Positions 876 to 25,756 of a stretch of DNA of 64,000 nt are shown here, piece after piece (the first letter of the stretch is position 1; each line of letters begins with the position of its first letter). The stretch comes from Anaerobaca lacustris. GTDB lineage: Bacteria; Planctomycetota; Phycisphaerae; Sedimentisphaerales; Anaerobacaceae. Under the pieces are notes generated by a model, which saw only the letters and a program-made list of their open reading frames with translations, did no database searches and was not told the DNA's origin. The DNA is taken from NCBI RefSeq assembly GCF_030012215.1, contig NZ_JASCXX010000012.1:1-64000 (forward strand), read 5' to 3'. Made by a program: the position numbers and the translations under genes.

Positions 876-1444
876 CTTGACCTGCGTCTCAAATCACTCT
901 GGATTCCTTGAGGCGGCGATTCGTTGACCCCGCCGCCGACCATGAGGGGAGATTCTATTCGCTGCCGCGTCCGCAGGCAAGCGGAGACGGAAGATGGCGA
1001 GAATTGGCTTGCATCGAGCTCGTCGGATATGGTACAAATAGTGTAGGCCGGTTGCGAGGGGTCTGGGCACGCGCGACAGGTCGGATGTGGTGATTTCAAG
1101 ATTCTGTGGTGATACGGACCGTCGCTCGTATCGGTGGTCGCGTTGTACGGTCAGGATCGGAGGCCCTGATGGAGTGTGTGGTGTTACGCACGTGGTCAGG
1201 GGGGCTGGGTGCTCATTTCTGGGCTGCGGTTGTGCCCATCTCACGGCATGGTATGGTCCCTCATGCGGCCGGGGGAGCACGACCGCTCATTCATTCAACG
1301 ATTCCATTCGAGAAAACGTTCCGAGGTCGAGGACGGCGGTTATGGTCTGCGCGTCCGGGCGGAATGATTCGATATCGCGGAGGGAAGCGACCCGGCGCGT
1401 GGCCGGAGCGAACCTGTTACGACCCTGTTTGAAGGAGGATTGTC
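876..1444. other. Intergenic region between plsY and the first modular gene
   Basis: This 570-base stretch holds no convincing gene; the short open frames have no family signature. It contains a possible promoter pointing right, TTGCAT (1009-1014), 18 bases, TACAAA (1033-1038), which is weak and far from the next start. Its last 84 bases are the duplicated leader described separately. Confidence 0.5.
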
Positions 1445-1447
1445 ATG
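1361..1447 (+). repeat. Duplicated 87-bp leader, copy A
   Basis: From GGAATGATTC to the ATG of the gene at 1445 the sequence matches 4389-4475 at 86 of 87 positions (one T/C change). It contains two small potential hairpins, GGG-AAGCGA-CCC and CCGGC-GCGTG-GCCGG, and the ribosome binding site GAAGGAGG. Such identity in a noncoding leader, when the coding sequence right after it differs, suggests recent duplication or a conserved regulatory role. I could not match it to a known riboswitch class. Confidence 0.85.
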
Positions 1448-4138
1448 AGTAGAAAGTGCATTGGATTGATTGCCGCTGTTCTGGTCTCACTGGTTTTGGT
1501 GGGATCGGTGCATGGACAGTCGGTGAAGGTCAGTTTTGAAATGGCCGCCACGGCGACGGAGGAAGGGTATCTCAAGGACAGCGGATTGCCGTTTGGGGAC
1601 CGTGGGAACGGCTGGAGTTACGGCTGGAGCCGGGACATCAGCGCCGATGGCCGCGAGCGAAATGCTGGGAATTCTCCAAACAAGGCATGGGACACCCTGA
1701 TGCATCTCCAGAAGGGCGCCGCCGCCGTCTGGGAGATCGAGATCGCCAACGGTGTGTACAACATCTACATCGTTGCCGGCGATCCCGGCTACACCGATCA
1801 GACCAACAACTTCGACGTCGAAGGCGTGATCATCGAGGACCCGGACGGACAAGCGGGCAATTTCGATGAAATGACCGCGACGGTCACGGTGTCTGACGGT
1901 CGGCTGACCCTTCAGCCGGCCGCTGGAGCGGCGAACTCCAAGATTTGCCTGATCGAAATCACGCTGGCCATGGCGCCGGAGTCGGCCCGTTCGCCGAGTC
2001 CCGCCACGGAGGTGACTGATGTGCCCCGCGACGTCATCCTGGGTTGGGAGCCGGGCGAGGGCGTCTCGGCACACGATGTCTATTTCGGGACCAGTCTCGA
2101 TGACGTCAGCAGTGCCAGCCGAGCCGACCCGATGGGGGTCCTGGTCAGCCAGGGCCAGACCGCGTTGACCTACGATTCGGCAGATCTGCTCGACTTCGAT
2201 ACGACGTACTACTGGCGAATCGACGAGGTCCTCACCGCCGGCGGCATCTTCGAGGGCGAGGTCTGGAGCTTCACCACCGAGCCGTTTGCCTATGCGATTC
2301 AGAACGTGATCGCGACTGCGTCCAGCTCTTCGGCCGATACGACGCCGGGGAATACTGTCGACGGCTCCGGACTCAACGAGAACGACCAGCACTCGACCGA
2401 GAGTTCAGACATGTGGCTCACAGCCGCCGATGCGGAAAGACCCGCCTGGATCCAGTACGAGTTCGATCGCGTCTACAAGATGCACGAGTTGTTGGTTTGG
2501 AACTACAACGTGCAGTTCGAGCCGGTGCTCGGTTTCGGGGCCAAGGACGTCACCGTGGAGTACTCGGTGGATGGCGCGGAGTGGGCCGTTCTGGGCGATG
2601 TCGAATTCGCCCGGGCCGCGGCCACGGCCAGTTACGTCGCCAACACGACGGTGGATATGGCGGGCGTTGGCGCCAGGTATGTCCGGCTGGTCATCCAGAA
2701 CAACTGGGGCGTCCTGCCGCAGATCGGTCTGAGCGAAGTCCGCTTCCTGTACATTCCCGCCCAGGCCCGAGAGCCGCAACCGGCCGACGGGGTTATGGAT
2801 GTCGATCCCGAGACCGTGCTGAGCTGGCGCGCGGGGCGCGATGCAGCATCGCATGATGTGTATCTCGGCACCGATGCAGAAGACGTGCCGCTGGTCGACA
2901 GTGTCGCGGGAGCCTCTCTTGTACCAGATGAGCTGATCTTTGGGACCACCTACTACTGGCAGGTCGACGCGGTCAGTGATGAAGTCTGGGCCGGCGCTCT
3001 GTGGAGCTTTGTGACGCAGGAGTACCGATTGATCGACGGGTTTGAGACGTATACCGACGACATCGAAGCGGGCGAGGCGATCTTCGACACGTGGCTCGAC
3101 GGCTGGGTCAACGACACCGGCTCGACGGTTGGCTACCTCGAAACTCCGTTCGCCGAGCGGACGATTGTCCGCAATGGCTCTCAGTCGATGCCGCTGCAGT
3201 ATGACAATACGGTCTCGCCGTTCTACTCAGAAACCGAGCGAACGTTCGATTCGCCACAGAACTGGACGGTCAACGGGGCTGATACGCTGCATCTGTTCGT
3301 CGCCGGGCAGGGTGCGGCCTTCGCCGAGACCGCCGAGGGCACGATACTCGTTACCGGCGGCGGGGCCGATATCTGGAATACGGCCGACGAGTTCCGCTAC
3401 GTGTACAAGACGCTCACCGGCAATGGCTCGATGACCGTCCGGGTGCTCAGCAACGGCACGGGGACCAACGCCTGGGCCAAGGGCGGCCCGATGATCCGCC
3501 AGAGTCTCGACGCCGGTGCGATCAATGTGATGGGCGCGGTCACCGGCGGCGATGGCGACGGCGGGACGTTCCAGTGGCGTCCGACGGCGGGTGGTGTCTC
3601 GGAATCGAGCCGAACGCTGACCGGCATTGCGCCGCCCTACTGGGTCCGGATGACACGCCAGGGCAACACGTTTACGGTCGAGATGTCGGCCGACGGCGAG
3701 CAGTGGGAGCAGCAGGGTGCCACTCCCGTTGACATCACGATGCAGGACCCGGTCCTGATCGGCCTGGCAGTCACGTCGCACGTTGCCGGTGAGTTGCGGA
3801 CGTACGAGTTCGATAGCGTTTCGACGACGGGCAACGTCACGGGCAATTGGCAGGTGGCGGCGGTCGGCGCCGAGCAGGGCGAAGGCAACGCCCCGGCATC
3901 GCTGTATGTGGCGTTGGAGGACGCGACGGGCAAGGTGGCGGTGGTGAGCCATCCGGACCTGGTGACCCGTGGCGACTGGAACGCGTGGGTGATTCCGCTG
4001 AGTGATTTCGTGGGCGTCAATGCCAGCCGTATCCAAACGATGTACATCGGTGTCGGCGATCGCAATGCGCCGACCGCCGGCGGCACCGGCATCGTCTACA
4101 TCGACGACATCGGTTTCGGCCGACCCATGACGGAATAG
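1445..4138 (+). CDS. Secreted modular protein, paralogue 1 (galactose-binding-like N-module, Fn3-like, F5/8C, split C-terminal domain)
   Basis: The 897-residue protein starts with a signal peptide (1-25, ending VHGQ). Modules in order: a malectin-like or other galactose-binding-type beta sandwich (about 28-175, with YGW and VYNIYIVAGDP), an Fn3-like domain (178-280), an F5/8-type-C discoidin domain (281-440), a second Fn3-like domain (441-527), then a 120-residue segment starting with DGFETYTDD (528-650). A DUF1349-like sandwich follows (about 652-796, with WVRMTRQGNTF), and then a final segment ending YIDDIGFGRP. The two outer C-terminal segments read like halves of one jelly-roll domain split by the DUF1349-like insertion. 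No catalytic motif or sorting signal is visible. An extracellular glycan-binding role is inferred. Paralogues lie at 4473, 7316 and 22856. Confidence 0.85.
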   Translation: MSRKCIGLIAAVLVSLVLVGSVHGQSVKVSFEMAATATEEGYLKDSGLPFGDRGNGWSYGWSRDISADGRERNAGNSPNKAWDTLMHLQKGAAAVWEIEIANGVYNIYIVAGDPGYTDQTNNFDVEGVIIEDPDGQAGNFDEMTATVTVSDGRLTLQPAAGAANSKICLIEITLAMAPESARSPSPATEVTDVPRDVILGWEPGEGVSAHDVYFGTSLDDVSSASRADPMGVLVSQGQTALTYDSADLLDFDTTYYWRIDEVLTAGGIFEGEVWSFTTEPFAYAIQNVIATASSSSADTTPGNTVDGSGLNENDQHSTESSDMWLTAADAERPAWIQYEFDRVYKMHELLVWNYNVQFEPVLGFGAKDVTVEYSVDGAEWAVLGDVEFARAAATASYVANTTVDMAGVGARYVRLVIQNNWGVLPQIGLSEVRFLYIPAQAREPQPADGVMDVDPETVLSWRAGRDAASHDVYLGTDAEDVPLVDSVAGASLVPDELIFGTTYYWQVDAVSDEVWAGALWSFVTQEYRLIDGFETYTDDIEAGEAIFDTWLDGWVNDTGSTVGYLETPFAERTIVRNGSQSMPLQYDNTVSPFYSETERTFDSPQNWTVNGADTLHLFVAGQGAAFAETAEGTILVTGGGADIWNTADEFRYVYKTLTGNGSMTVRVLSNGTGTNAWAKGGPMIRQSLDAGAINVMGAVTGGDGDGGTFQWRPTAGGVSESSRTLTGIAPPYWVRMTRQGNTFTVEMSADGEQWEQQGATPVDITMQDPVLIGLAVTSHVAGELRTYEFDSVSTTGNVTGNWQVAAVGAEQGEGNAPASLYVALEDATGKVAVVSHPDLVTRGDWNAWVIPLSDFVGVNASRIQTMYIGVGDRNAPTAGGTGIVYIDDIGFGRPMTE

Positions 4139-4170
4139 CGTCATCTGTCGAACGGAAGGGATGTACCGTG

Positions 4171-4201
4171 CGTAGCTCCAACGCCTTCGGTTGGAGCTAC
4201 G
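4171..4201 (+). terminator. Hairpin after paralogue 1, copy 1 of a duplicated element
   Basis: A perfect 12-bp stem CGTAGCTCCAAC/GTTGGAGCTACG (4171-4182 with 4190-4201) encloses the loop GCCTTCG. It is followed by CCTTCTTGTATAGT rather than a clean T tract. The same element occurs at 7244-7274 after paralogue 2. It probably terminates transcription. The conserved TATAGT just downstream looks like a -10 box, so terminator and promoter may be fused. Confidence 0.65.
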
Positions 4202-4297
4202 CCTTCTTGTATAGTTCTGTATCAGACGAAAGGGGATTCTCGGCGTTCAGAGAACGAAGTGTCGTGTTGTGGCGGTATTCCTTCTTCGGCGGGATGC
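4202..4297 (+). pseudogene. Decayed 5' end of a further paralogue (promoter, RBS, lost start codon)
   Basis: This stretch aligns with 7275-7380, the promoter, RBS and signal-peptide coding start of paralogue 3. Matching landmarks: GTATAGT, then AAAGGGGATTC against AAAGGAGATTC, then GCGTTCAGA against ATGTTCAGA, then GCGGTATTCCTTCTTCG against GCGGTGTTCCTCTTCG. The start codon has become GCG and small indels break the frame. Together with the preceding hairpin it looks like the remnant of a gene start left between paralogues 1 and 2. The alignment was made by eye. Confidence 0.5.
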
Positions 4298-4388
4298 CCA
4301 GATGATGTGGCAATTCAACAGTTCGACGTGGTTCTCGATAGAGTGTTCCGCGCCAGAATGGCGGCGGCCGGAGTGTCCCCGGACCGCA

Positions 4389-4475
4389 GGAACGATTCGA
4401 TATCGCGGAGGGAAGCGACCCGGCGCGTGGCCGGAGCGAACCTGTTACGACCCTGTTTGAAGGAGGATTGTCATG
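4389..4475 (+). repeat. Duplicated 87-bp leader, copy B
   Basis: It matches copy A (1361-1447) at 86 of 87 positions and ends in the start codon of the gene at 4473, with RBS GAAGGAGG. The first coding residues are also similar (MGRK against MSRK), after which the two genes' N-terminal modules are unrelated. Confidence 0.85.
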
Positions 4476-7211
4476 GGTAGAAAATGTACTTGGCTCATGG
4501 TGTTGCTTGGCGTTGTGCTCTTTGTCGCAGGCACGGTCCAGGCGCAGTTGATTACTGGTGTCGAACGGCGGGGCAGCACCTTTGCTCCACCTCAGGTGGC
4601 CCCTGACCCACTTGCCGACAATTCCCCTTGTTATGTCGATCGTGTCCATCAATACACCGATATCCCCGAGTTTCTTCTTGGGGCTGAGTACGTCATGGTG
4701 GCCAACGACGACAAGAACCCGGCCACCTACGAGTTGGACGTGACGTTGTCCGGCAATGCGATCTTGTATCTGATCCTCGACAATCGTCTCGGTGGTGGCA
4801 GCATGACCGCGCCCGGTCCGGTTGGCAACCCCATGCCCTGGGTGCTGGAGATGGGGTTCGTCAACCTGGAGGTGGACCTCGGTATCGACGAGGGCGCCGA
4901 TGGAACGATCAACCAACGGTCCACCATTTGGGCTCTGGAAGTCAAGAGGGGGACCATTACGTTGTTTGCGCAGAACGACGGCGGCAGCCGAAACATGTAC
5001 GGCGTGGCAGCGCTGCCGAGCACGCCGGCGGGTGTTGCCTCCGCGCCTGCGCCCGAGGACGAGGCCGACGACGTCCCGCGCGAGGTCGTGTTGAGTTGGA
5101 CAGCCGGCGAATTTGCCGCGACCCATGATGTGTATCTTGGAACGGCGTTCGACGATGTCAACGACGCCAGCCGGGCCGATCCGAGAGGTGTGCTTGTCAG
5201 TCAGGGTCAGACGGCCACCAGTTACGATCCGCCGGACCTGCTGGAATTCGGTGCGACCTATTACTGGCGGATCGATGAGGTCAACGCCGCGCCCGACAAC
5301 ACGATCTTCAAGGGCACGGTGTGGAGCTTCGCGACCGAGCCGTTCGCCTATGCGATTCAGAACGTGATCGCGACCGCGTCCAGCTCCTCGGCCGATACAG
5401 CGCCGGCGAATACCGTCGACGGCTCCGGACTCAACGAGGACGATCAGCACTCAACGGCGGCCTCGGACATGTGGCTCACAGCCGCCGATGCGGAACTGCC
5501 GATCTGGATCCAGTACGAGTTCGATCGCGTCTACAAGATGCACGAGTTGTTGGTCTGGAACTACAACGTGCAGTTCGAGCCGGTGCTCGGCTTCGGGGCC
5601 AAGGACGTCACCGTGGAGTACTCGGTGGATGGCGCCGAGTGGGCCGTTCTGGGCGATGTCGAATTCGCCCGGGCCGCGGCCACGGCCAGTTACGTCGCCA
5701 ACACGGCGGTGGATATGGCGGGCGTTGGCGCCAGGTATGTCCGGCTGGTCATCCAGAACAACTGGGGCGTCCTGCCGCAGATCGGTCTGAGCGAAGTCCG
5801 CTTCCTGTACATTCCCGCCCAGGCCCGCGAGCCGCAACCGGCCTCCGGCGGGACCGACGCAAGCGTCGATTCGGTTCTGACCTGGCGGGCCGGGCGAGAC
5901 GCCGTCTCACATGAGGTCTACTTCGGCACGGACGCCGATGAGTTGCCGCTGGCCGGCAGCCCCGCCCAGGCCGCGTTCGCGGCGTCGCTCGAGTTCGGCA
6001 CAACGTACTACTGGCAGGTGGACGAAGTTGGCGACGATGCCGTCTGGCCCGGCGAGCTCTGGAGCTTCGCGACCCAGGAGTATCGGTTGATCGACGGCTT
6101 CGAAACCTACACCGACGACATCGACGCCGGCGAGGCGATCTTCGACACGTGGCTCGACGGCTGGGTCAACAGCACCGGCTCGACGGTGGGCCACCTCGAA
6201 ACCCCGTTTGCCGAGCGGACCATTGTCCACAGCGGCTCTCAGTCGATGCCGCTGCAGTATGACAATACGGTCTCGCCGTTCTATTCGGAGGCCGAGCGCA
6301 CGTTTGCCTCACCGCAGAACTGGACCGGCAACGGGGCCGACACGCTGGTGGTGTACTTCCAGGGGCTTCCGGCGTCGTTCCTGGAGTTGGCGGACGGCAA
6401 GATCATTCTTGGCGCGGCCGGGGCCGACATCTGGGGTACGGCCGACGAGTTCCGTTTCGCCTACAAGAATCTCAACGGGGATGGCTCGCTTATTGCCTAT
6501 GTGGAGAGCGTGTCGCGCGCGAACGAATGGACCAAGGCCGGCGTGATGATCCGTGAGACGCTGCAGCCTGGTTCGAAGTTTGCAGCGGTGTATTCGACGC
6601 CGGACTACGGGTGCCGTTATCAGGCCCGTTTGACCATGGGCGTGGATGCTGTCAGCGACAGCTCGATTGCCACGGCCGAGCAGATTGCCTTGCGTGCGCC
6701 CCACTGGGTGAAAATCGAGCGCGTGGGCAACGCCTTCAACGGCTACTACTCGACGGACGGTGAGAACTGGACCGCCATGGCGTGGAATCCGCAGACGATC
6801 GTGATGGGAGCGAACGCGTACATCGGCCTGGCGTTGACCAGCCACGTCACGGGGGTCCTGGCCAGCGCCGAGTTCTCGGGGATGACCACGACGGGCAACG
6901 TCAGCGGTCAGTGGACGGTCGAGACGATCGGTCCGGCGCAGCCGGAGGGCAACAGCGCGGCGCCGCTCTACGTGCGCGTGGAAGACGCGACGGGCAAGGC
7001 GGCGAGCGTGACTCATCCGGCCGGCAACGGAGCCGTCTTCCTGGCCGGGTGGAACGAGTGGCAGATCCCGCTGAGCGAGTTTGCCGGCGTGAATCTGAGC
7101 CGGGTGGACACGATGACCATCGGCGTTGGCAATCGGACCAGCCCGGCCGCCGGCGGCACCGGCATCGTCTACATCGACGACATCGGTTTCGGCAGGCCCG
7201 CTGCACAATAG
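4473..7211 (+). CDS. Secreted modular protein, paralogue 2 (unique N-module, Fn3-like, F5/8C, split C-terminal domain)
   Basis: The protein has 912 residues with a signal peptide (1-24, ending VQAQ). The N-terminal module (about 25-183) has no similarity I recognise to paralogue 1 and no LamG signature; it may be another beta-sandwich. From residue 184 the layout repeats paralogue 1: Fn3-like (184-290), F5/8C (291-451), Fn3-like (452-538), DGFETYTDD segment (539-655), DUF1349-like (660-805) and the closing segment ending YIDDIGFGRP. The F5/8C coding stretch (about 5505-5840) is nearly identical in bases to that of paralogue 1, including silent positions. No enzyme motif is seen, and extracellular binding is inferred. 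Confidence 0.85.
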   Translation: MGRKCTWLMVLLGVVLFVAGTVQAQLITGVERRGSTFAPPQVAPDPLADNSPCYVDRVHQYTDIPEFLLGAEYVMVANDDKNPATYELDVTLSGNAILYLILDNRLGGGSMTAPGPVGNPMPWVLEMGFVNLEVDLGIDEGADGTINQRSTIWALEVKRGTITLFAQNDGGSRNMYGVAALPSTPAGVASAPAPEDEADDVPREVVLSWTAGEFAATHDVYLGTAFDDVNDASRADPRGVLVSQGQTATSYDPPDLLEFGATYYWRIDEVNAAPDNTIFKGTVWSFATEPFAYAIQNVIATASSSSADTAPANTVDGSGLNEDDQHSTAASDMWLTAADAELPIWIQYEFDRVYKMHELLVWNYNVQFEPVLGFGAKDVTVEYSVDGAEWAVLGDVEFARAAATASYVANTAVDMAGVGARYVRLVIQNNWGVLPQIGLSEVRFLYIPAQAREPQPASGGTDASVDSVLTWRAGRDAVSHEVYFGTDADELPLAGSPAQAAFAASLEFGTTYYWQVDEVGDDAVWPGELWSFATQEYRLIDGFETYTDDIDAGEAIFDTWLDGWVNSTGSTVGHLETPFAERTIVHSGSQSMPLQYDNTVSPFYSEAERTFASPQNWTGNGADTLVVYFQGLPASFLELADGKIILGAAGADIWGTADEFRFAYKNLNGDGSLIAYVESVSRANEWTKAGVMIRETLQPGSKFAAVYSTPDYGCRYQARLTMGVDAVSDSSIATAEQIALRAPHWVKIERVGNAFNGYYSTDGENWTAMAWNPQTIVMGANAYIGLALTSHVTGVLASAEFSGMTTTGNVSGQWTVETIGPAQPEGNSAAPLYVRVEDATGKAASVTHPAGNGAVFLAGWNEWQIPLSEFAGVNLSRVDTMTIGVGNRTSPAAGGTGIVYIDDIGFGRPAAQ

Positions 7212-7243
7212 CGTTATTTGTCGGATCGAGAAGATGTATCGTG

Positions 7244-7274
7244 CGTAGCTCCAACGCCTTCGGTTGGAGCTACG
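7244..7274 (+). terminator. Hairpin after paralogue 2, copy 2 of the duplicated element
   Basis: The same 12-bp stem and GCCTTCG loop as 4171-4201 (stem 7244-7255 with 7263-7274) stands 33 bases after the stop codon of paralogue 2. TATAGT follows at about 7282-7287, and the RBS AAAAGGAG and ATG of paralogue 3 follow within 45 bases, so it probably also lies in the promoter region of that gene. Confidence 0.65.
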
Positions 7275-7315
7275 CCTTCGTGTATAGTGCCGTACCAGGT
7301 AAAAGGAGATTCCCT

Positions 7316-10210
7316 ATGTTCAGAAGACCGAAACAGCATGTCGCAGCGGTGTTCCTCTTCGCGGTGTGTTCACTGCTGCCGGCGATGCCCGTTTCCGGGC
7401 AGAACTTCGCTTTGGACTTCAACAACAACCGCGTCGATATTCCCTACATCGGGGCCGGGGTCGATTTCTCCGAGATATCCTTGGAGGCGTATGTGTATTG
7501 GAGGGGGCACATCAATACGGACGCAGCGGGTCTTATCGAGGGACGAGGCAGCACGCTGCACTGGCAGATCAACCAGAACAACAACGTGCGAATCCGGTTC
7601 GAAGGGGTGGATCAGAACGCCAACGCAGATGTTCAGCAAGACGAGTGGTTCCATCTTGCGGTCACCTACAACAGGGCCACCGGCGAACTGCGCCTCTACA
7701 AGAACGGCGAAGTCTTCCACTCCTTCTCCGGAGACAGTGGGACCAACAGCTATTGGACGTCAGGCAGTGCCCAGATCGGGAACAGTCTTATGTCGGGGGA
7801 TCGCCACTGGAACGGCCTGATCGACGAGTTCCGCGTCTGGAACAGGGCGCGCACGGAGGCCGAGATCCGGGAGGCAATGAACGTGGAACTGCTCGGGGAC
7901 GAGCAAGGGCTGATTGCCTACTGGAAGTTCAACGAGGGTGAGGGGACGACGGCCTTCGACAGCTCGCCCAATGAGCATCACGGGACGATCGTCGGCGCGA
8001 CCTGGACGACGGCCGCCGCGCCGGTGATGCCGGCGGGATTCGCCTACGCCCCGGTCCCGGCCAATCGAGCCACCGATGTGCCACTGGATGCGGTCCTGCG
8101 CTGGACGTCCGCCAGGGACGTCGTGAGCCACGACGTGTATTTCGGCACAGACTTCGCTGAGGTCGAGGCCGCCGATGCGGGCAATCCGATGGGTGTTCTC
8201 GTCAGCCAGCGTCAGAGCGGCAACACCTTCGATCTGCCGGGCCTTCTGGCGTTCGGCCAGATCTACTATTGGCGAGTGGACAGTTTCGAGGCCGACGGCG
8301 TCACCATGTACAAGGGCAACGTCTGGAGCTTCACCGCCGAGCCTTTGGCGTATGCCGTCGAGAACATCGTAGCCACCGCCTCCGCGGCCGACGCCGGCGC
8401 GGGTCCTGAGAATACGGTCAACGGTTCCGGGCTCGATGCGGATGACTTGCACTCGGTCGAGGCAGCCGACATGTGGCTGGCTACAAGTGACGGCGTGTCG
8501 CCGATCTGGATTCAGTATGAGTTCGACCGCATCTACAAGCTGTATGAGCTTTGGGTCTGGAACTACAACGTACAGTTCGAGCCGGTGCTCGGTTTCGGGG
8601 TCAAAGACGTCACCGTGGAGTACTCGCAGGACGGCGAGGAGTGGGTGACTCTGGGCGACTACGAGTTCGCCAGAGCGACGGCCAGGACCGGCTACGCGCA
8701 CAACACGACCGTGGATCTCGAAGGCATCGCTGCCAGGTACGTCCGGTTCACCGTCAACGACAACTGGGGTATGCTGTCCCAGTATGGTCTCAGTGAGGTT
8801 CGTTTCCTGTATATTCCCGCCCAGACGCGCGAACCTCAGCCGGCCGACGGAGCGACGGACGTCGATCCGGCGACGTCGCTGAACTGGCGGGCCGGCCGCG
8901 ATGCAGCCTCGCATGAGGTGTACTTCGGCACCGACCAGGAGGATCTGCCGCTGGTCGGCAGTGTTTCCGAGGCGGCCTTTGCTCCCGATGCTCTGAACTT
9001 CGGCACCACCTATTACTGGAGAGTCGATGCCGTCGGCGACGACGTTTGGGCCGGTGAACTCTGGAGCTTCGCGACGGCCGAATACGCGTTGATCGACGGG
9101 TTCGAGACCTACACCGACGACATCGAGGCGGGCGAAGCCATCTTCGACACGTGGCTCGACGGCTGGGTCAACAACACCGGCTCGACGGTCGGCTACTTCG
9201 ACGCCCCGTTCGCCGAGAAGACCATCGTCTACAGCGGCGCCCAGTCGATGCCGTTGCTGTATGACAACAGCACCTCGCCGTTCTACTCCGAGGCGGAGCG
9301 GACGTTTGACTCGCCGCGAAATTGGACCCTCAATGGCGCCGACACGCTGCGGCTGTTCGTTGCCGGACGGGCGCCGGCCTTCCTCGAGAGCGCCGATGGT
9401 ACGATCCTGATGAACGCGATCGGCAACGACATCTGGAACAACGCCGATCAGTTCCGCTATGTGTACAAGAACCTCAGCGGCAACGGCTCGATCACGGCCC
9501 GCATCGATACGCTTGACGTCAGTCCCGACATCTGGGTCAAGGGCGGCGTGATGATCCGCCAGAATGCCGACGCCGGGGCCGTCAACGTGTTCATGGCGAT
9601 GACCGGCAGCGGGGGCGGCGGGTCAACATTCCAGCAGCGCATGATCGCCACCGGCGTCTCGGTCTCGCAGCACACCTACGCCGATGGGCCGTTCACCGCG
9701 CCATACTGGGTGCGAGTCACGCGCGAAGGCAACACGCTCACGGGATACACTTCGCCTGACGGCGAGAACTGGACCCAGCGTGGCGACACGATCACGCTGG
9801 CGATGACCGATCCGGTGTTGATCGGCCTGGCACTGACCAGCCACAACGCCAATCAGGCGACCAGCGCACAGTTCTCGAACGTGGCCTTCACGGGCAACGT
9901 CACGGGCGCCTGGCAGGTGGCCGAGGTTGGTATCGCGCAGCCGCAAGGCAACGCCGTCGCGCCGCTGTACGTGGCGCTCGAGGACGCAACCGGCAGATCG
10001 GCGGTGGTGACGCATCCTGACGCGAACATCGTCGGCCGCTCCGGCTGGAACGAATGGCAGATTTCGCTGAGCGAATTCGCCGGCGTGAACCTGAGCCGGG
10101 TGGACACGATGGTCATCGGCGTCGGCAGCCGGACCACCCCGACCGCCGGCGGCACCGGCACCATCTACATCGACGACATCTCGTTTGGAAAGCCGGCTAT
10201 TGCAGAATGA
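7316..10210 (+). CDS. Secreted modular protein, paralogue 3 (LamG, Fn3-like, F5/8C, split C-terminal domain)
   Basis: The reading frame stays open 534 bases upstream, but the start is taken at 7316 because AAAAGGAG precedes it and a signal peptide follows (MFRRPKQHV to PVSGQ). The product has 964 residues: LamG (about 30-232, with WHWNGLIDEFRVWNRA-type ending and LIAYWKFNEGEG), Fn3-like (241-343), F5/8C (344-503), Fn3-like (504-589), DGFETYTDD segment (590-705), DUF1349-like (712-859, with FTAPYWVRVTREGNTL) and the closing segment. LamG domains bind sugars or proteins, so a surface or extracellular glycan-binding role fits. Its last third is nearly identical to paralogue 4 at 22856, on the opposite strand. 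Confidence 0.85.
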   Translation: MFRRPKQHVAAVFLFAVCSLLPAMPVSGQNFALDFNNNRVDIPYIGAGVDFSEISLEAYVYWRGHINTDAAGLIEGRGSTLHWQINQNNNVRIRFEGVDQNANADVQQDEWFHLAVTYNRATGELRLYKNGEVFHSFSGDSGTNSYWTSGSAQIGNSLMSGDRHWNGLIDEFRVWNRARTEAEIREAMNVELLGDEQGLIAYWKFNEGEGTTAFDSSPNEHHGTIVGATWTTAAAPVMPAGFAYAPVPANRATDVPLDAVLRWTSARDVVSHDVYFGTDFAEVEAADAGNPMGVLVSQRQSGNTFDLPGLLAFGQIYYWRVDSFEADGVTMYKGNVWSFTAEPLAYAVENIVATASAADAGAGPENTVNGSGLDADDLHSVEAADMWLATSDGVSPIWIQYEFDRIYKLYELWVWNYNVQFEPVLGFGVKDVTVEYSQDGEEWVTLGDYEFARATARTGYAHNTTVDLEGIAARYVRFTVNDNWGMLSQYGLSEVRFLYIPAQTREPQPADGATDVDPATSLNWRAGRDAASHEVYFGTDQEDLPLVGSVSEAAFAPDALNFGTTYYWRVDAVGDDVWAGELWSFATAEYALIDGFETYTDDIEAGEAIFDTWLDGWVNNTGSTVGYFDAPFAEKTIVYSGAQSMPLLYDNSTSPFYSEAERTFDSPRNWTLNGADTLRLFVAGRAPAFLESADGTILMNAIGNDIWNNADQFRYVYKNLSGNGSITARIDTLDVSPDIWVKGGVMIRQNADAGAVNVFMAMTGSGGGGSTFQQRMIATGVSVSQHTYADGPFTAPYWVRVTREGNTLTGYTSPDGENWTQRGDTITLAMTDPVLIGLALTSHNANQATSAQFSNVAFTGNVTGAWQVAEVGIAQPQGNAVAPLYVALEDATGRSAVVTHPDANIVGRSGWNEWQISLSEFAGVNLSRVDTMVIGVGSRTTPTAGGTGTIYIDDISFGKPAIAE

Positions 10211-10327: not shown

Positions 10328-10357
10328 TGACACGCCGTTCGCATTTGCGATAGAATG
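10328..10357 (+). promoter_or_regulatory. Promoter of the glycosyltransferase gene
   Basis: ATGACA (10328-10333), an 18-base spacer, then TAGAAT (10352-10357). The inferred transcript start near 10364 rules out the upstream ATG at 10355 as the start codon. Confidence 0.65.
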
Positions 10358-10435
10358 CTCGTCGATTCCGGCCTTGTTCCGCACGTCGTTTGTCGCGCGG
10401 GTGGACACGGCTGGTCCATCGTTCGAAGAGGATCT

Positions 10436-11554
10436 ATGACAGAGACCGGGCTTTCGGACACGACGGGTGTGAGGAAGGCGCTGCGTCCGGTCCTGGTCGC
10501 ATCGCGGCGGGAGATCACCGACCACGCCCCGTTTCTGTGGCGTCTGCTGGTCGGGCTGGTGGATGAGTCGATCCCCACCGCCCTGATCTGTCCGCCGAGC
10601 TGCGATGCGGCATGTGTTGTGCCGGGGCCGGTTGAGGTCTTCACGTATCCGACGATCGACTTGCCGCTCATGGAGCGGATGGGCCTCGAGTCGCTCGCTG
10701 CGCCGTTGGAGAGGTTCAAGCCGACCCTCCTGCATTGCCTGTGCCAGAGCAGGGCGGCCCTGACCCGGCGACTGGCCCGCCGGCTGAACGTCCCGTACGT
10801 GCTTGCCGTCAACTCCCTTTTCGGGCGGCGGCAAAGGCTCAACGTCTCCTCGGCGCGTTGTGCGAAGATCGTGGTGCCGGCCGAGACGATCGGTTCCAGC
10901 ATTGCCCGGGCGCACAGCCGCTTCGCCGACCGGATCACACGGATTCCCATGCCGACATTCGCCGAGGCCGATCCCGCCTGTTTCTCCGATCCTTCACGTC
11001 TGAGCAGCATGGTTGTGGCGCATCCGATCGATCGCGCGTCGGATTTCGAGCCCCTCCTGGAGGCCGCCAAAGCACTTCTCGCCGAAGGCCGTGAGTTCGT
11101 GATTGCGATCATGGGCAGCGGCCGGGCGGAGCATCGATTGCGGAAGGCGCTGACCGAACACGGTCTGTCCCGCGTTGTGACCCTCGTTCCGGTGCTCGAT
11201 CCATGGCGATCCGTTCTGGCGGCAGGGGACCTCTTCATCCACCTTCGGCCCGCTGTGACGTTCAGCGGCTTCCTGCTGGAAGCGATGGGCCTGGGGCTGG
11301 CGGTGGTGGCCTGTAAGGGGGGCGTCGACGATCTCATCATTCATCAGGAGACGGCGCTGGTCTACGAGCGAAACGATGCGGTGACCCTGCAACGGGCGAT
11401 CGCCCGTCTTCTGGACGACCATGACGCCGCCCGCCGGTTGGCCGCTTCCGCTCAGAACCACGTCCGTGCGCACTATTCTGTTGGCGGCCACGTTGCGGCC
11501 ACTCTGGAGACGTATATCGAGGCCCAGCGACAGTACCGTGAGACGGCACCGTAG
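10436..11554 (+). CDS. GT4-like glycosyltransferase
   Basis: The 372-residue protein begins at the ATG at 10436, preceded by GAAGAGG. The frame is open from 10355, but that ATG lies inside the promoter. The C-terminal half has the GT4 donor-binding signature: FSGFLLEAMGLGLAVVACKG, with the EX7E-type region followed by GGVDDLI, and the typical ending ARRLAASAQNHVRAHYS. The N-terminal half (LVASRREITDHAPFLWRLL) is poorly conserved, as usual for acceptor domains. It probably adds a sugar to a lipid-linked or surface glycan, but donor and acceptor cannot be read from the sequence. It is a monocistronic gene. Confidence 0.75.
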   Translation: MTETGLSDTTGVRKALRPVLVASRREITDHAPFLWRLLVGLVDESIPTALICPPSCDAACVVPGPVEVFTYPTIDLPLMERMGLESLAAPLERFKPTLLHCLCQSRAALTRRLARRLNVPYVLAVNSLFGRRQRLNVSSARCAKIVVPAETIGSSIARAHSRFADRITRIPMPTFAEADPACFSDPSRLSSMVVAHPIDRASDFEPLLEAAKALLAEGREFVIAIMGSGRAEHRLRKALTEHGLSRVVTLVPVLDPWRSVLAAGDLFIHLRPAVTFSGFLLEAMGLGLAVVACKGGVDDLIIHQETALVYERNDAVTLQRAIARLLDDHDAARRLAASAQNHVRAHYSVGGHVAATLETYIEAQRQYRETAP

Positions 11555-12994: not shown

Positions 12995-14773
12995 ATGGGA
13001 AGAGCCAGGAAGAAGGCCGCCGCGTCGAAGACCAAGGCGGTTCACGCGAAGAAGGCGAAGGCCGCGGGGAAGGCCGTCAAAAAGGCGGTAAAGAAGGCGA
13101 CGAAGAAAACCGCGAAGAAGGCCGTGCGCACGAGCAAGAAGGCGCCGGCCGAAGCGGTCCCGCTGCCGTTGCCTGAACCACAAGTCCCGAGCGACGAACG
13201 ACGAGCGACGGACCGGCCGGTCCGGCACGCGACCGCCGAGGACATGGCGCGCGGACAGCGCGAGATTTCCGTGGCCGAGTTCTTTACCAAGAACCGCCAC
13301 CTGCTCGGCTTCGATAACCCGCGAAAGGCGCTGCTGACGACGATCAAGGAGGGTGTGGACAACTCGCTCGACGCCTGCGAGGAGGCGGGTATTCTGCCCG
13401 AAGTCAAGGTGGTGGTCGCTCCCGGCTCGGAGGAGGATCGCTTTCGCGTGACGATCGAGGACAACGGGCCGGGCATCGTCAAGGCCCAGATCCCCAAGAT
13501 TTTCGCCAAGCTGCTCTATGGCTCGAAGTTTCACCGGCTCAAGATGTCACGCGGCCAGCAGGGGATCGGCATCTCGGCAGCGGGGATGTACGGCCAGCTC
13601 ACCACGGGCAAGCCCGTCTCCATCACGTCAAAGACCAGTCGCAATAAGCCGGCCCACCACTATGAGCTGGAGATCGATACGAAGAAGAACGAGCCGCGGA
13701 TCATCGTCGACGAGACGATCGACTGGCCCGTCGATCGCGGCACCAGAGTCGAGATCGAGCTCGAGGCCAAGTACCAGAAGGGCCGCCAGTCGGTGGAGGA
13801 GTACCTCGAACAGACCGCCATCGCCAACCCGCACGTCTCGCTCCAGTTCGTCACGCCCGAAGGCGAGGTGAAGGACTACAAACGAGCCACGGACCAATTG
13901 CCAGCCGAGACGCGGGAGATCAAGCCGCACCCCTACGGCGTTGAGTTGGGCGTGCTCATCAAGATGCTCCACGACACCAAGGCGCAAACGCTCCAGTCGT
14001 TTCTGCACACGGATTTCTCACGCGTCAGCATGCGGGTGGCCAAGCAGATCAGCGATGCGGCCAAGCTCTACGAGCGGGCCCGGCCGTCACGAATCGCCCG
14101 CCAGGAAGCGGACAACCTCTTCAAGGCGATCAACCGCACGAAGATCATGAACCCGCCCACCGATTGCCTCAGCCCGATCGGCGAGGAGCTGATCCTTGCG
14201 GGCCTCAAGACCCAGATCGAGGCCGATTTCTACACCGCCGTGACGCGTCCGCCCTCTGTCTATCGCGGCAATCCGTTTCAGATCGAGGCCGGGCTCGCCT
14301 ACGGCGGCTCGCTCCAGTCCGATGGGCTCGCGCGCGTGCTGCGCTATGCCAATCGCGTGCCACTGCTCTATCAGCAGTCGGCCTGCGCGATGACCAAATC
14401 GGTGATCTCGACGGACTGGCGCAATTATGCCCTTCAGCAGTCCAACGGCGCTCTGCCGTCGGGCCCGCTGATCGTGATGGTGCACATGGCGTCGGTCTGG
14501 GTGCCGTTCACCAGTGAGAGCAAGGAGGCGGTGGCGCACTATCCCGAGATCATCAAGGAGGTCCGGCTGGCGCTGCAGGAGTGCGGCCGACGGCTGGCCG
14601 TGTTCATCCGTCGGCGGCGCAAGGCGGCCGAATCGGAGAAGAAGAAGGCCTATATCCAGAAATACATCCCTCACGTCGCCATCGCCTTGCGCGAGATGCT
14701 GAACCTCTCCGAGCGTCAGGAACAGAGCTTGGTGACCCAGTTGACCGACGTCCTCGAAAGGAGCCGATCGTGA
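12995..14773 (+). CDS. top6B: DNA topoisomerase VI subunit B with a histone H1-like N-terminal tail
   Basis: This is the ATPase subunit of the type IIB topoisomerase that relaxes and decatenates DNA with its partner encoded next door. The GHKL ATP-binding motifs are intact: E119 and N123 in [11 protein letters not shown] (N box), D156 to G160 in EDNGPGI, and GQQGIGIS at 187-194 (ATP lid). The transducer region follows, with the switch lysine region near [11 protein letters not shown]. The 592-residue protein has about 80 extra residues at its N terminus, dominated by Lys and Ala ([15 protein letters not shown]), unlike archaeal Top6B, which begins around the AEFF segment (94-97). The tail resembles bacterial histone H1-like proteins and probably binds DNA. 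Stop and next start overlap (GTGA). Confidence 0.93.
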
Positions 14774-15852
14774 GCAAGTTGGCCAATCGCATCAAGGATA
14801 CCGCGGCCGGCGTCCGGGACAAGATCCAGCGGAAGGGCAAGCCCACGCTGTCGTTCCCGCTGCGCGCGCTGAGCAACGTGAAGTACCTTCCCAAGACGGG
14901 CTTCCTCGAACTGCGGGGCAAGCGGAAGACCCGCACGCTGACGGTCGCGACCGTCAAGACGTTCGCGCAGACGCTTCGCATGATGTCCACCGCGAAGACG
15001 CTCGTCGAGGACGACGAGATCATGACCAAGCGAGAGGCCTACTACGTCTCGAAGAACTGGGACGACGCGCGGTTCGACGAACAGCCCGAATCGGACACCG
15101 TGCTCGACGACATCGAGGCGCTGTTCGAGGTCAACCGCGAGCAGCTCGGCTTCATCCCGGAAGAGAAGGGCGGCGAGATTGCCGGCCAGCTCGTGGTCTT
15201 CGACCGCCAGCCCGATACGGGCAAACCCCTGCGGATCGACTGCACGCAGTTCGGCTCGGGCGCCTATTCGATCCCGATCTCGGTCGAACACCTGAAGTTC
15301 GAGACGAAGGCCAAGTTCATTCTGGCCATCGAAACGGCCGGCATGTTCCAGCGGCTTGTCAAGCACAGCTACTGGCGCAAGGCCAACTGCATTCTCGTCT
15401 CGATGGGAGGCGTGCCAACGCGGGCGTGCCGGCGCTTCATCCGGCGGCTGGCCGACGAGCTGAAGCTGCCGGTCTATGCCTTTGTCGACTGCGACCCGTA
15501 CGGCATGTTCAACATCTACCGCACGCTCAAGGTCGGCTCGGGCAACGCCGCACACATCAACCGCTATTTCTGCGTCCCGAATGCGAGATTTCTCGGAGTC
15601 ACGCCGCAGGACATCGTCGACTACAAGCTGCCGACCCATCCCCTCAAGGACGTCGATATCAAGCGGGCCAAGGACGCGCTGAAGAACGATCCGTTCGTTC
15701 AGCACTACAAGCCCTGGCAGCAAGCGATTCAGCAGTTGCTCGACATGGGGGTTAGGGCCGAGCAGCAGGCATTCGCCGTCCACGATCTCAACTACGTGAT
15801 CGAACACTACCTGCCCGAAAAGCTGGCCGCCGCCAAGTCCTTTCTGCCATAG
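14770..15852 (+). CDS. top6A: DNA topoisomerase VI subunit A (Spo11-like)
   Basis: This is the DNA-cleaving subunit, 360 residues, starting with GTG at 14770. The start overlaps the top6B stop (GTGA), with AAAGGAG upstream; the frame is open from 14581 but that part lies inside top6B. The catalytic tyrosine is in [12 protein letters not shown] (Y91 or Y92), in the winged-helix CAP domain. The Toprim metal site has E188 (AIETAGMF) and D240/D242 (FVDCDPYG). Both key sites are intact, so an active A2B2 enzyme is expected. Topo VI is typical of archaea and plants and scattered in bacteria, which suggests old horizontal transfer. Confidence 0.95.
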
Positions 15853-22855: not shown

Positions 22856-25756
22856 CTATTCCGTCCCCGCAGGGCGGCCGAATCCGATGTCATCGATGAA
22901 GACCATGCCCGTGCCGCCGGCGACGGGGTTGGTTCGGCTACCGACGCCGATCGCTATCGTACTGACTCGGCTCAGGTTCACGCCGGCGAATTCGCTCAGC
23001 GAAATCTGCCATTCGTTCCAGCCGGAGCGGCCGACGATGTTTGCGTCCGGATGCGTCACAACCGCCGATTTGCCGGTTGCGTCCTCCAGCGCTACGTAGA
23101 GCGGCGCGACGGCATTGCCCGCCGGCTGCGCGACGCCGACTTCGGCCACCTGCCAGGCGCCCGTGACGTTGCCCGTGAAGGCCACGTTCGAGAACTGTGC
23201 GCTGGTCGCCTGATTGGCGTTGTGGCTGGTCAGCGCCAAGCCGATCAACACCGGATCGGTCATCGCCAGCGTGATCGTGTCGCCACGCTGGATCCAGTTC
23301 TCGCCGTCAGGCGAAGTGTATCCGCGAAGCGTGTTGCCTTCGCGCGTGACTCGCACCCAGTACGGCGCGGTGAACGGCCCGTCGGCATAGGTGTGCTGCG
23401 AGACCGAAGCGCCGCCGGCGGTCATACGCTGCTGGAACGTTGACCCACCGCCACCGGTCCCGGTCATCGCCATGAACGTGTTGATTGCCCCGGCCTCGGC
23501 GTTCTGTCGGATCATCACGCCGGCTTTGACCCAGATGTCGGGACTGATGTCGAGCATATCGACGCGAGCGGTAACGGAGCCGTTGCCGCTGAGGTTCTTG
23601 TACACATAGCGGAACTGATCGGCGTTGCCCCAGATGTCGTTGCCGATGGCGTTCATCAGGATCGTACCGTCGGCTGCCTCGAAGAACGCCGGCCCCTGTC
23701 CGGCGACGAACAGCCGTAACGTATCGGCGCCGTTGCCGGTCCAGTTCTGCGGCGTCGCGAACGTCCGCTCGGTCTCCGAGTAGAACGGCGAGGTGGTGTT
23801 GTCGTAGAACAGCGGCATGGATTGACGGCCACTGCGGACGATCGTCCGTTCGGCGAACGGGGTCTCAAGGTAGCCGACCGTCGATCCGGTATTGTTGACC
23901 CAGCCGTCGATCCAGGTGTCGAAGATCGCTTCGCCGGCGTCGATATCGTCGGTGTAGCTCTCGAACCCGTCGATCGGCGCGTATTCCTGCGTCGAGAAAC
24001 TCCAGAGATCGCCGGCCCAAGCCGCGACGGCCTCGGCCTCGTTGACCTCGACGACCTGCCAGTAGTACGTCGTTCCAAAAATCAGATTGGCCGACGCCAG
24101 AATCGCCTGGTCAATCGTCCCAACCAGATCGACGGACTGCGGGTCGGTCCCGAGGTAGACCTCGTGCGACGCGGCATTGCGACCGCTGCGCCAGCTCAGG
24201 GCGGCACCGACATCGACGCCGACGGCTCCGTCAGCCGGGTGCGGCTCGCGGGCCTGCGCCGGAACGAACAGGAAGCGGACCTCGCTGAGGCCGTACTGGC
24301 CCGTTCCACCGAACCCGCTGTTGACGGTCAGGCGAACGTACCGGGCCGCTGCGCCACCGAAGGCGACCGTTGTGTCGGCCGCATATGTGGCCGTTCCCGT
24401 GGCCCTGGCGAATTCCACGTCGCCGAGCACGGTCCAGTCCTCGCCGTCTTCGGAATATGCCACAGTGACATCCTTGAGCCCGAACCCGAGGATCATCTCG
24501 AACTGGACGTTGTAGTTCCAGACGAGCATCTCGTGGAGCTTGTAGACGCGGTCGAACTCGTACTGGATGTGCAGGGGCTCGTCCGCCGGGGCCCTGGCCA
24601 GCCACATGGCCGCGCTGTCGGTCGAGTGCTGATCGGCGGCGTCGAGGCCCGAACCGTCGATCGTCTTCTCCGGTCCGGCGGTCGCATCCGAGGTTCCATT
24701 CGTCGTGGCGACGATGTTCTCGATGGGATAGGCGAACGGCTCGGTGGTGAAGCTCCAGACGTCGCCCGCAAAGACCGTACGATCCGGGGCGGCATTGACC
24801 TCATCAACCCGCCAGTAGTACGTCCGGCCGTAGTCCAGACGCTCGATCTCGACGCGCGTGACATCCTGGGCCAGGCTGTCGGCAATCAGTGTAGCCGGGG
24901 CCGCCCCATCGACGTCTGCCCAGGAAGAGCCGAAGTAGACATTATGCGTCGCGGCGTACTCGCCCGCCGTCCAGGTCAGATCGGTGGTGATGGGCACATC
25001 GTCGGCGCCGTCGGTCGGGATCGGATCGAACGCGCGCTTGCGGCGGAAGAAGCTGTCACCGGCCTGCCCCATCGCGGCGATCTCCGTTGCACTGAGGGGA
25101 CGATCCCAGATCGCCACCGTCGAGACGTTCATCGGGGCGTCGTCACGGTCCTGGTTGTTGCCGGCGCAGAACAGCAGGATGACGTCGGCAAGACTGAACC
25201 GACCGTCGATGCCCTGCTGGTTGCCCTTGAAGATCTCGACACCGTCGACGTAAAGGTCCTGCCGGACACCATTCTCGACCACGAGGACCATGCGGTACCA
25301 TGTGCTGCCCTGCGTGGTGTAGCCGTAGGCGCTGGAGTAGCCCACCGCGCCGATCCCGATCGCGCCGGACGAGTTGATGGTCCAGTCGGAATCGTCGGCG
25401 TTGGTCGGGTCGAGCTGGAACAGGTCGTTGTACCCGCTCGGTGGATCGGACAGACTGCTGGGCGGGTAGCTGAAGTCGATCAGCAGGGTCCACTGATTGA
25501 CCTTGGCGCCGCCGCCGTTGGGAGCGATCCCATGCGTGCAGACGTAGTAACTTCCCTCGCCGATCTGAACGGCGCCGTCGGCCGCATGGACGCCGGGTAC
25601 ATTCTCGACAGTGCCGACGAGTTGCAGCGGTTCACCGATCGTCGCCCGATTGGTGTCCGGCTGATTGAACTCCCACGCGCCTTTCGGTTCGGGGACGGCC
25701 GCCTGCACCGGCGCCGTCAGGGCGGCGATCAGCAGCAGCAACATGAGTCTTTTCAT
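22856..25756 (-). CDS. Secreted modular protein, paralogue 4 (LamG, Fn3-like, F5/8C, split C-terminal domain), inverted
   Basis: The frame opens at 25984, but the ATG at 25756 has GGAGAA before it and a signal peptide after it (MKRLMLLLLIAALTAPVQA). The 966-residue protein has LamG (about 25-215, with IWDRPLSATEIAAM), Fn3-like (242-339), F5/8C (340-503), Fn3-like (504-593), DGFESYTDD segment (594-708), DUF1349-like (715-863) and the closing segment ending FIDDIGFGRP. The tail is nearly identical to paralogue 3; for example 65 bases around 22975-23038 match about 10031-10095 exactly. It is the only copy on the minus strand and stands 12.6 kb from the tandem set. Confidence 0.85.
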   Translation of the reverse strand: MKRLMLLLLIAALTAPVQAAVPEPKGAWEFNQPDTNRATIGEPLQLVGTVENVPGVHAADGAVQIGEGSYYVCTHGIAPNGGGAKVNQWTLLIDFSYPPSSLSDPPSGYNDLFQLDPTNADDSDWTINSSGAIGIGAVGYSSAYGYTTQGSTWYRMVLVVENGVRQDLYVDGVEIFKGNQQGIDGRFSLADVILLFCAGNNQDRDDAPMNVSTVAIWDRPLSATEIAAMGQAGDSFFRRKRAFDPIPTDGADDVPITTDLTWTAGEYAATHNVYFGSSWADVDGAAPATLIADSLAQDVTRVEIERLDYGRTYYWRVDEVNAAPDRTVFAGDVWSFTTEPFAYPIENIVATTNGTSDATAGPEKTIDGSGLDAADQHSTDSAAMWLARAPADEPLHIQYEFDRVYKLHEMLVWNYNVQFEMILGFGLKDVTVAYSEDGEDWTVLGDVEFARATGTATYAADTTVAFGGAAARYVRLTVNSGFGGTGQYGLSEVRFLFVPAQAREPHPADGAVGVDVGAALSWRSGRNAASHEVYLGTDPQSVDLVGTIDQAILASANLIFGTTYYWQVVEVNEAEAVAAWAGDLWSFSTQEYAPIDGFESYTDDIDAGEAIFDTWIDGWVNNTGSTVGYLETPFAERTIVRSGRQSMPLFYDNTTSPFYSETERTFATPQNWTGNGADTLRLFVAGQGPAFFEAADGTILMNAIGNDIWGNADQFRYVYKNLSGNGSVTARVDMLDISPDIWVKAGVMIRQNAEAGAINTFMAMTGTGGGGSTFQQRMTAGGASVSQHTYADGPFTAPYWVRVTREGNTLRGYTSPDGENWIQRGDTITLAMTDPVLIGLALTSHNANQATSAQFSNVAFTGNVTGAWQVAEVGVAQPAGNAVAPLYVALEDATGKSAVVTHPDANIVGRSGWNEWQISLSEFAGVNLSRVSTIAIGVGSRTNPVAGGTGMVFIDDIGFGRPAGTE

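Follow-up and report, generated by a model that had tools for sequence, protein, structure and literature searches.

The window analysed here comprises the first 64,000 nucleotides of contig NZ_JASCXX010000012.1 of Anaerobaca lacustris (RefSeq assembly GCF_030012215.1; Planctomycetota, Sedimentisphaerales). It carries three adjoining genes, G1 to G3, and an inverted fourth, G4 (Table 1). A preliminary description, made from the sequence alone, had seen a common tail in all four, and this is correct. E values against G1 are 0 for G2, 6.5e-302 for G3 and 2.5e-273 for G4, and an F5/8 type C (F5/8C) domain (PF00754) lies above the Pfam cut-off of 28.2 in each, at 33.3-42.9 bits. However, this is not a family of four. 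The genome that contains the window (G000; 5.73 Mb, 117 contigs) has 67 core members on its own. The interpretation favoured here, to which a probability of about 0.7 is given, is that over evolutionary time ectopic recombination between paralogues brings the members of a stable set of modules, secreted and probably glycan-binding, into new combinations.

Core members in G000 are those with a best blastp score above 400 bits and a length above 500 amino acids (aa). Searching the genome with G1 gives 105 matching stretches at E<=1e-5. The stop-to-stop frames of the family total 189,021 nt, or 3.3% of G000, which slightly overestimates the coding length. In the five congener genomes, G001 to G005, G2 as query finds 75-135 matching stretches each, and 61 members were extracted from G005 under a looser rule than that applied to the 67 (a profile match over 150 positions). 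Among the 60 nearest relatives and G000, the core occurs in 30 of 61 genomes at E<=1e-20. Across the phylum, with at most five candidates scored per genome, it was found at E 1e-40 in one of 294 genomes, G000 itself. Ten contig ends of G000 (C4, C45, C24, C62, C57, C23, C21, C19, C35 and C16) fall inside family-matching stretches, so the family probably limits the assembly.

Table 1. Family genes of the window, their parts, and glycosyltransferase relatives in congeners
Feature	Positions	Strand	Remarks
G1	1445-4138	+	897 aa; signal peptide, unrecognised head, core, DUF1349-like insert, split-domain end
G1 5′ leader	1361-1465	+	97-98% identical to G2 leader; ends a few codons into signal peptide
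G1 head and signal peptide	1445-1978	+	Relatives: G005:C125 60%, G001:C219 59%, G000:C27 53%
G1 constant core	1979-3310	+	Fn3-like, F5/8C, Fn3-like, first part of split domain
G1 F5/8C, CBM32-like	about 2282-2761	+	Within core
G1/G2 high-identity tract, ~80 codons	2465-2707	+	98-99% DNA identity; G2 partner about 5517-5759
G1 DUF1349-like insert within split domain	3311-3835	+	Residues 623-797; fold match 3mep, below Pfam cut-off
G1 split C-terminal domain, second part	3836-4135	+	
G2	4473-7211	+	912 aa; G1-type core and insert, other unrecognised head
G2 5′ leader	4389-4494	+	Partner of 1361-1465
G2 head and signal peptide	4473-5030	+	
G3	about 7316-10210	+	964 aa from that start; LamG head, same core and insert
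G3 LamG head and signal peptide	7316-8035	+	
G4	22856-25756	-	966 aa; inverted copy
G4 LamG-type head and signal peptide	25040-25756	-	Weak Pfam match
Glycosyltransferase relatives with TGA	G002:C63:19929-21068; G003:C1:6382174-6383286; G004:C390:1-363		

Conservation is highest in a core of some 445 residues (about 179-622 in G1), after which comes the end of the split domain. The core runs from an Fn3-like segment through a CBM32/F5-8C domain and a second Fn3-like segment to the start of the split domain. An AlphaFold2 model of G1, built on 55 alignment rows, gives this block a predicted confidence (pLDDT) mostly above 88 at residues 181-530 and lower at 530-580. The F5/8C part matches the galactose-binding CBM32 structure 2bzd (Z 18.8, root-mean-square deviation (rmsd) 1.6, 135 residues). 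The insert matches 3mep (Z 19.8, rmsd 2.3, 163 residues), which we take to be a DUF1349 protein; the DUF1349 Pfam profile scores it at 26.4-30.6 bits, under the cut-off of 32.4. The Fn3-F5/8C-Fn3 order proposed earlier holds for its middle member. Pfam fn3 has no match in G1 to G4, and "Fn3" is a label by form for two segments (residues 180-280 and 440-530) that are strand-rich, with high pLDDT in the full model of G1. A sequence search of the PDB with the G1 tail gave no match. A profile search with the family alignment gave four weak ones (E 0.0025-0.0074), all in the head part and none for F5/8C; these pentraxin and botulinum-complex NTNH proteins are read as a concanavalin-fold resemblance. 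The first Foldseek rows were uninformative, most of them stringing several domains over 600-800 columns at an rmsd near 28, as were the G1 head in the full model (pLDDT at most 60) and the G2 head region folded without an alignment (pLDDT 35).

The N-terminal modules, or heads, are more diverse. The 67 heads of G000 form 24 clusters (phmmer, E<1e-4), of which the largest, the LamG cluster, has 35 members. Pfam LamG (PF13385) extends beyond that cluster, to 39 heads at E<=0.001, so 24 overstates the number of head folds. Other matches at this threshold are CBM_4_9 (four heads), CBM9 and PA14 (two each), and CBM96, DUF1349 and 3-keto-disaccharide hydrolase (one each). LamG heads had been reported twice in the window. 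That of G3 is a clear match to Laminin_G_3 (76.5 bits), whereas that of G4 exceeds the cut-off of 27.6 only when scanned alone (31.4 bits, against 26.8 in the full protein); the two fall in separate phmmer clusters. The head of G1 had been called galactose-binding-like and that of G2 unrecognised. Neither head, scanned singly, matches a Pfam family at E<=0.01. The G2-type head has a single match in each of five of the eight genomes searched, with 46-53% identity outside G000; its relatives there lie in G005 (C16), G001 (C418), G003 and G029. Two relatives of the LamG head of C26_55522 in G002 (C71:15507-16079 and C96:4431-5003; 57-58% identity) lie in frames of about 260 aa and are possibly heads without a core; the C71 frame extends to the contig end.

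The C-terminal module also varies. In G000 the DUF1349-like insert occurs in 28 members, most of which have a C-terminal part of 274-284 aa. A second class, with C-terminal parts of 236-300 aa, has 19 members. Another 10 lack an insert and end in only 86-93 aa, four are unique, and six are truncated by contig ends. The second class has a LamG match at the C-terminus in six of eight members scanned in full and none in two. In the 14 members scanned in full there is neither a catalytic domain above the Pfam cut-off nor a dockerin or cohesin match. The constant tail of 700 residues seen earlier is thus borne out by the core, but not by the C-terminal module, which differs in kind among members and in which the insert is only 44-68% identical in DNA between G1 and G2.

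In the window array, the 5′ leaders of G1 and G2 are 97% identical over 98 nt, and then the heads give no blastn hit to each other at 1e-3. In the core, nine of eleven 40-residue blocks are 74-99% identical in DNA, the other two being at 59% and 63%, and the longest identical run is 121 nt. The tract of 98-99% identity is a probable gene conversion, and the simplest account of the pair would be a tandem copy in which the head was replaced. The array is flanked by genes for a glycerol-3-phosphate acyltransferase (195-875, -) and a glycosyltransferase (10355-11554, +). The G1 orthologue of G001 precedes a gene with a CBM9-type head. That of G005 adjoins the acyltransferase at one contig end and a CBM9-headed gene adjoins the glycosyltransferase at another, so that the order there is inferred from two contigs. 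In G000 the CBM9-headed gene sits in another array (C19_73193), and G2 and G3 lie between G1 and the glycosyltransferase.

Exchange is seen at two loci that can be placed by their flanks. The anchors used are mechanical flanking open reading frames (ORFs) of at least 60% identity, often overlapping on both strands. C26_55522 of G000 is colinear on both flanks with C139_225980 of G005 (9 anchor ORFs upstream, 14 downstream), and the cores are 81% identical. However, its head is that of a different G005 gene, C109_213914 (82%). Conversely, C23_103305, truncated at a contig end, matches C109_213914 in its upstream flank, with 12 colinear anchor ORFs, and the two cores are 76% identical over 384 residues, but its nearest head within G005 is that of C139_225980 (67%). 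The heads of these two loci are reciprocally swapped between G000 and G005. Related genomes thus do show exchange, and not only the same head-tail pairs in fixed order, the pattern that the preliminary description had set against its own proposal.

Head and core trees conflict for the swapped loci. In the head tree, C26_55522 groups with G001_C271 and G005_C109 (100/99), and C23_103305 with G005_C139, G002_C71, G004_C439 and a G003 gene (99/99). In the core tree, C23_103305, G001_C271 and G005_C109 group with C20_57976 (96/93), whereas C26_55522 pairs with G005_C139 (93/92) inside a separate group of 15 rows (98/95). One clue to polarity is that G002 C85, which is colinear with the C26/C139 locus, has the head type of G000, and that G001 C271, colinear with the C23/C109 locus, has the G005 arrangement. 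Therefore, the swap more likely occurred on the G001/G005 side, although a single locus supports this polarity. The two swapped G005 genes share a mid-core tract of 90-98% DNA identity despite their different heads.

Heads have also been replaced at one or two further loci, with positional evidence weaker than at the two swap loci. C14_4932 and C109_162043 of G005 (two anchors, downstream only) have unrelated heads, with cores at 70%. A replacement is less sure, though probable, at C62_1: it and C122_2 of G005 also have unrelated heads, with cores at 75% (tied, not clearly closest) and eleven upstream anchors.

Exchange is not confined to the N-terminus. For 31 head-orthologous pairs both ends are known, and in six of them the C-terminal module is of a different kind. 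Two of the six also correspond in position: C31_7163 is colinear on both flanks, with a head identity of 96%, and C19_70034 on one. Beyond the six, C25_34776 has a C-terminal identity of only 43% and C27_2867 has about 160 extra residues. The earlier picture of variable heads on a constant tail is therefore right in that heads are exchanged on a shared core, but the tail is not the fixed part, its last third being itself exchanged.

Paralogues of the same genome also share identical DNA. Over the 2211 core-to-end paralogue pairs of G000, runs of at least 40 nt occur in 119, and in 100 of these, an upper figure, none of 200 codon shuffles produced a run as long. The longest, 296 nt, joins C11_166102 with C1_49257; G3 shares 188 nt with C1_11020, and G4 shares 131 nt with C26_55522. 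Five of the 100 tract pairs lie on one contig, against 52 of the 2211 pairs overall. Within the LamG cluster, head distance correlates with core distance at r 0.20 for the first half of the core (60 of 2000 permutations as high), 0.05 for the second half (532) and 0.15 for the whole (134). By comparison, the two core halves correlate at r 0.54 over all 67 members (0 of 500 permutations as high). Among LamG-headed paralogues, the correlation between head and core is nearly lost.

How might this come about? Their domain types, and starts that on inspection resemble signal peptides, suggest that members are secreted, probably glycan-binding proteins with a head, a constant core and a C-terminal module; for the adhesion role proposed earlier it is the domain types alone that point that way. 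Dispersed paralogues would recombine through ordinary homologous recombination or gene conversion, with the core, and the region of the 5′ leader and signal peptide, serving as homology arms. Heads and C-terminal modules would occasionally move between loci, and the core would be partly homogenised. Selection would keep the set of head types stable, with a separate glycan probably recognised by each type, and the CBM32-containing core would probably be a common second contact, with the cell envelope, matrix or polysaccharide. Such an ordinary route is favoured because the neighbours are mixed, no reverse transcriptase is found in the fetched family regions and the head-core correlation is low. 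A more tentative idea is that intact heads are conserved heritable cassettes that move reciprocally between loci. The head set would then be kept, but heads would be recombined with other cores, C-terminal modules and neighbourhoods, giving a combinatorial lectin set maintained by recombination without a dedicated recombinase. Heads are viewed as conserved heritable units because genomes with the G2-type head have a single copy of it and orthologous heads exceed cores in conservation.

Several observations weigh against reshuffling by ectopic recombination. Stable inheritance of head-core pairs is the rule. Reciprocal best matching between G000 and G005 pairs 45 heads, of which 41 have at least 65% identity, and for 33 of the 41 the core is also reciprocal best in the same gene. 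G4 and C58_3m of G005 are reciprocal best for both head (89%) and core (83% over 418 residues). In the orthologous pairs the heads have a median identity of 88% and the cores one of 81%, with heads more conserved in 35 of 41; the 436 flanking anchor ORFs have a median of 81%, with at least 60% required and some of them antisense. Of the 67 genes, 51 have a positional partner, meaning that two or more flanking anchors are common to the gene and a family member in G005. The head is the same in 33 of these pairs. In five it differs and the core is nearest, a class that includes G2 and G3 only through their lying in G1's array. In eleven the head differs and the core is not closest; these, C62_1 among them, count as neither swapped nor fixed, many being array neighbours or insertions. 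The partner's head is missing in the remaining two. Order is kept in some tandem arrays (C7 and G005 C144; C4 and G005 C16). A candidate head replacement at C15_105074 was rejected, direct alignment showing the same head at 89%. There are other difficulties. When the 20 heads outside the LamG cluster are scanned singly, 12 have no Pfam match at 0.01. Two G002 cores pair together in the core tree (99/96) and not with their supposed loci; therefore, cores are not always kept with the locus and are homogenised within a genome too. Core homogenisation alone could explain the low head-core correlation. In few pairs does the common 5′ leader exceed about 40 nt, and the 5′ arm is clear only for G1/G2. 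Four of the six C-terminal changes (C26_55522, C5_190467, C19_64002 and C19_73193) concern genes that are not positional partners. There are more anchors than genes, and the codon-shuffle null ignores uneven conservation, although the long runs are strong.

Could the heads have come instead from the DNA of other strains or species? Heads and cores are common across the genus, and the G1 head is only 57-60% identical to that of its positional orthologue, with cores at 77%. However, the swap is reciprocal and G000 and G005 each retain both heads, as expected from exchange within a genome, and the identical tracts join paralogues of the same genome. Outside acquisition is thus an unlikely main source, but it is compatible with recombination between paralogues as an extra route. 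Less likely still is an old multigene family that arose by ancient duplication and domain accretion, with head-core pairs since fixed and exchange minor. This would suit the fixed majority among both orthologous and positional pairs, and the arrays with conserved order. Nevertheless, it fits poorly with a reciprocal swap at flank-placed loci with conflicting trees, with the C-terminal changes and with identical DNA in dispersed paralogues.

A dedicated mechanism that moves heads, be it an invertase or shufflon, a retroelement or targeted cassette conversion, might be suspected from the many head types and from their behaviour as cassettes between leader and core, and a diversification system was what the preliminary description had proposed. 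This now seems very improbable. Family neighbours are heterogeneous, with 115 Pfam families in 93 neighbour proteins (sulfatase is commonest, n=4), and their analysis yielded no linked partner gene. No recombinase is among the 25 commonest of these families, which are those listed, invertible sites not having been searched for. RVT_1 has three matches in G000 (C68, C38 and C1:150416), none of them in a fetched family region; template and variable repeats were not looked for. In addition, breakpoints vary between pairs, at a resolution of 30-40-residue blocks, and most head-core pairs are fixed between species. It is equally hard to credit that metagenome assembly produced the swaps as chimeras at repeated cores. 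In favour of this are the listed relatives with names, all of them metagenome-assembled genomes (Phycisphaerae, Phycisphaerales, Sedimentisphaerales and unclassified Planctomycetota), the ten contig ends in family stretches and the identical tracts of up to 296 nt. However, C26_55522 is colinear with C139_225980 on both of its flanks, and a single wrong join is insufficient to explain this. At the head border, DNA blocks of the two genes of one genome are 59-89% identical, and no long identical tract occurs. The separate assemblies G001 and G002 each back one head placement, and the C-terminal change at C31_7163 also has both flanks colinear.

The family described here is a modular paralogue family, probably reshaped by ectopic recombination, and families of this kind are already known. 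Dockerin-bearing proteins of cellulosomes have a common module on many secreted proteins with different partners. A single module is likewise common to many secreted proteins here, but the members scanned in full lack dockerins and cohesins, and the shared core is itself a putative lectin. Expression-site systems are surface-protein families that recombine between loci. Host-interacting or surface paralogues there recombine and diversify, whereas here the exchange involves entire unrelated domains, and most pairs stay together from species to species. The Borrelia lipoproteins are one surface-protein family shaped by inter-locus recombination (PMC11389397). In polymorphic toxin systems (PMC3482391), a constant trafficking part is joined to a variable end that is exchanged by recombination. 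The likeness lies in one constant part, many unrelated exchangeable ends and paralogues within a genome. However, the heads here are mostly carbohydrate-binding types, not toxins, and both ends are exchangeable. The families that heads match are of LamG, CBM and PA14 type; PF07953, matched by two of the 67 heads, is the only one with a toxin name, and that name describes a receptor-binding module. No immunity partner was seen next to family genes in a general Pfam tally of neighbours, which was not a search aimed at immunity genes.

PMC11131199 reports that Sedimentisphaerales have the highest number of unique combinations of carbohydrate-active enzyme (CAZyme) modules, which fits the family here. 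Secreted Planctomycetota proteins and CAZymes with carbohydrate-binding modules are modular in the same way (PMC11131199), but here the scanned members lack a catalytic domain and one conserved core sits on more than 60 paralogues. Searches of open-access papers, and word finds in PMC11131199, PMC11266412 and PMC11929135, returned no description of the family. The positional evidence adds an environmental bacterium in which entire domains are reshuffled at either end of a large family of probably secreted proteins. Such reshuffling could account for wide recognition repertoires of polysaccharide degraders, with the constant core as a candidate shared attachment module.

Some minor observations remain. 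The window has no Rfam match. A hairpin-like element, GG-N(1-2)-NTG[TA]R-N-CC, lies within 130 nt upstream of eight of the 67 members, for example C19_73193 (L036), C4_1m (L054) and C67_533p (L063), compared with 1.2% of 5000 random windows, and is a possible regulator site. Relatives of the glycosyltransferase gene beside the array contain in-stretch TGA codons in G002 (two), G003 (one) and G004 (one), and none in G001 or G005; gene decay, a sequencing error or an alignment that overruns the gene's end are candidate causes. Near the family genes, at 29803-32769, the window encodes a protein with CotH kinase and lamin-tail domains. Topoisomerase VI is best known from archaea and plants, and the genes for both of its subunits adjoin each other in this bacterial genome, at 12995-15849 of the window (Topo-VIb transducer, 2.9e-62; TOP6A/Spo11 Toprim, 2.7e-61).

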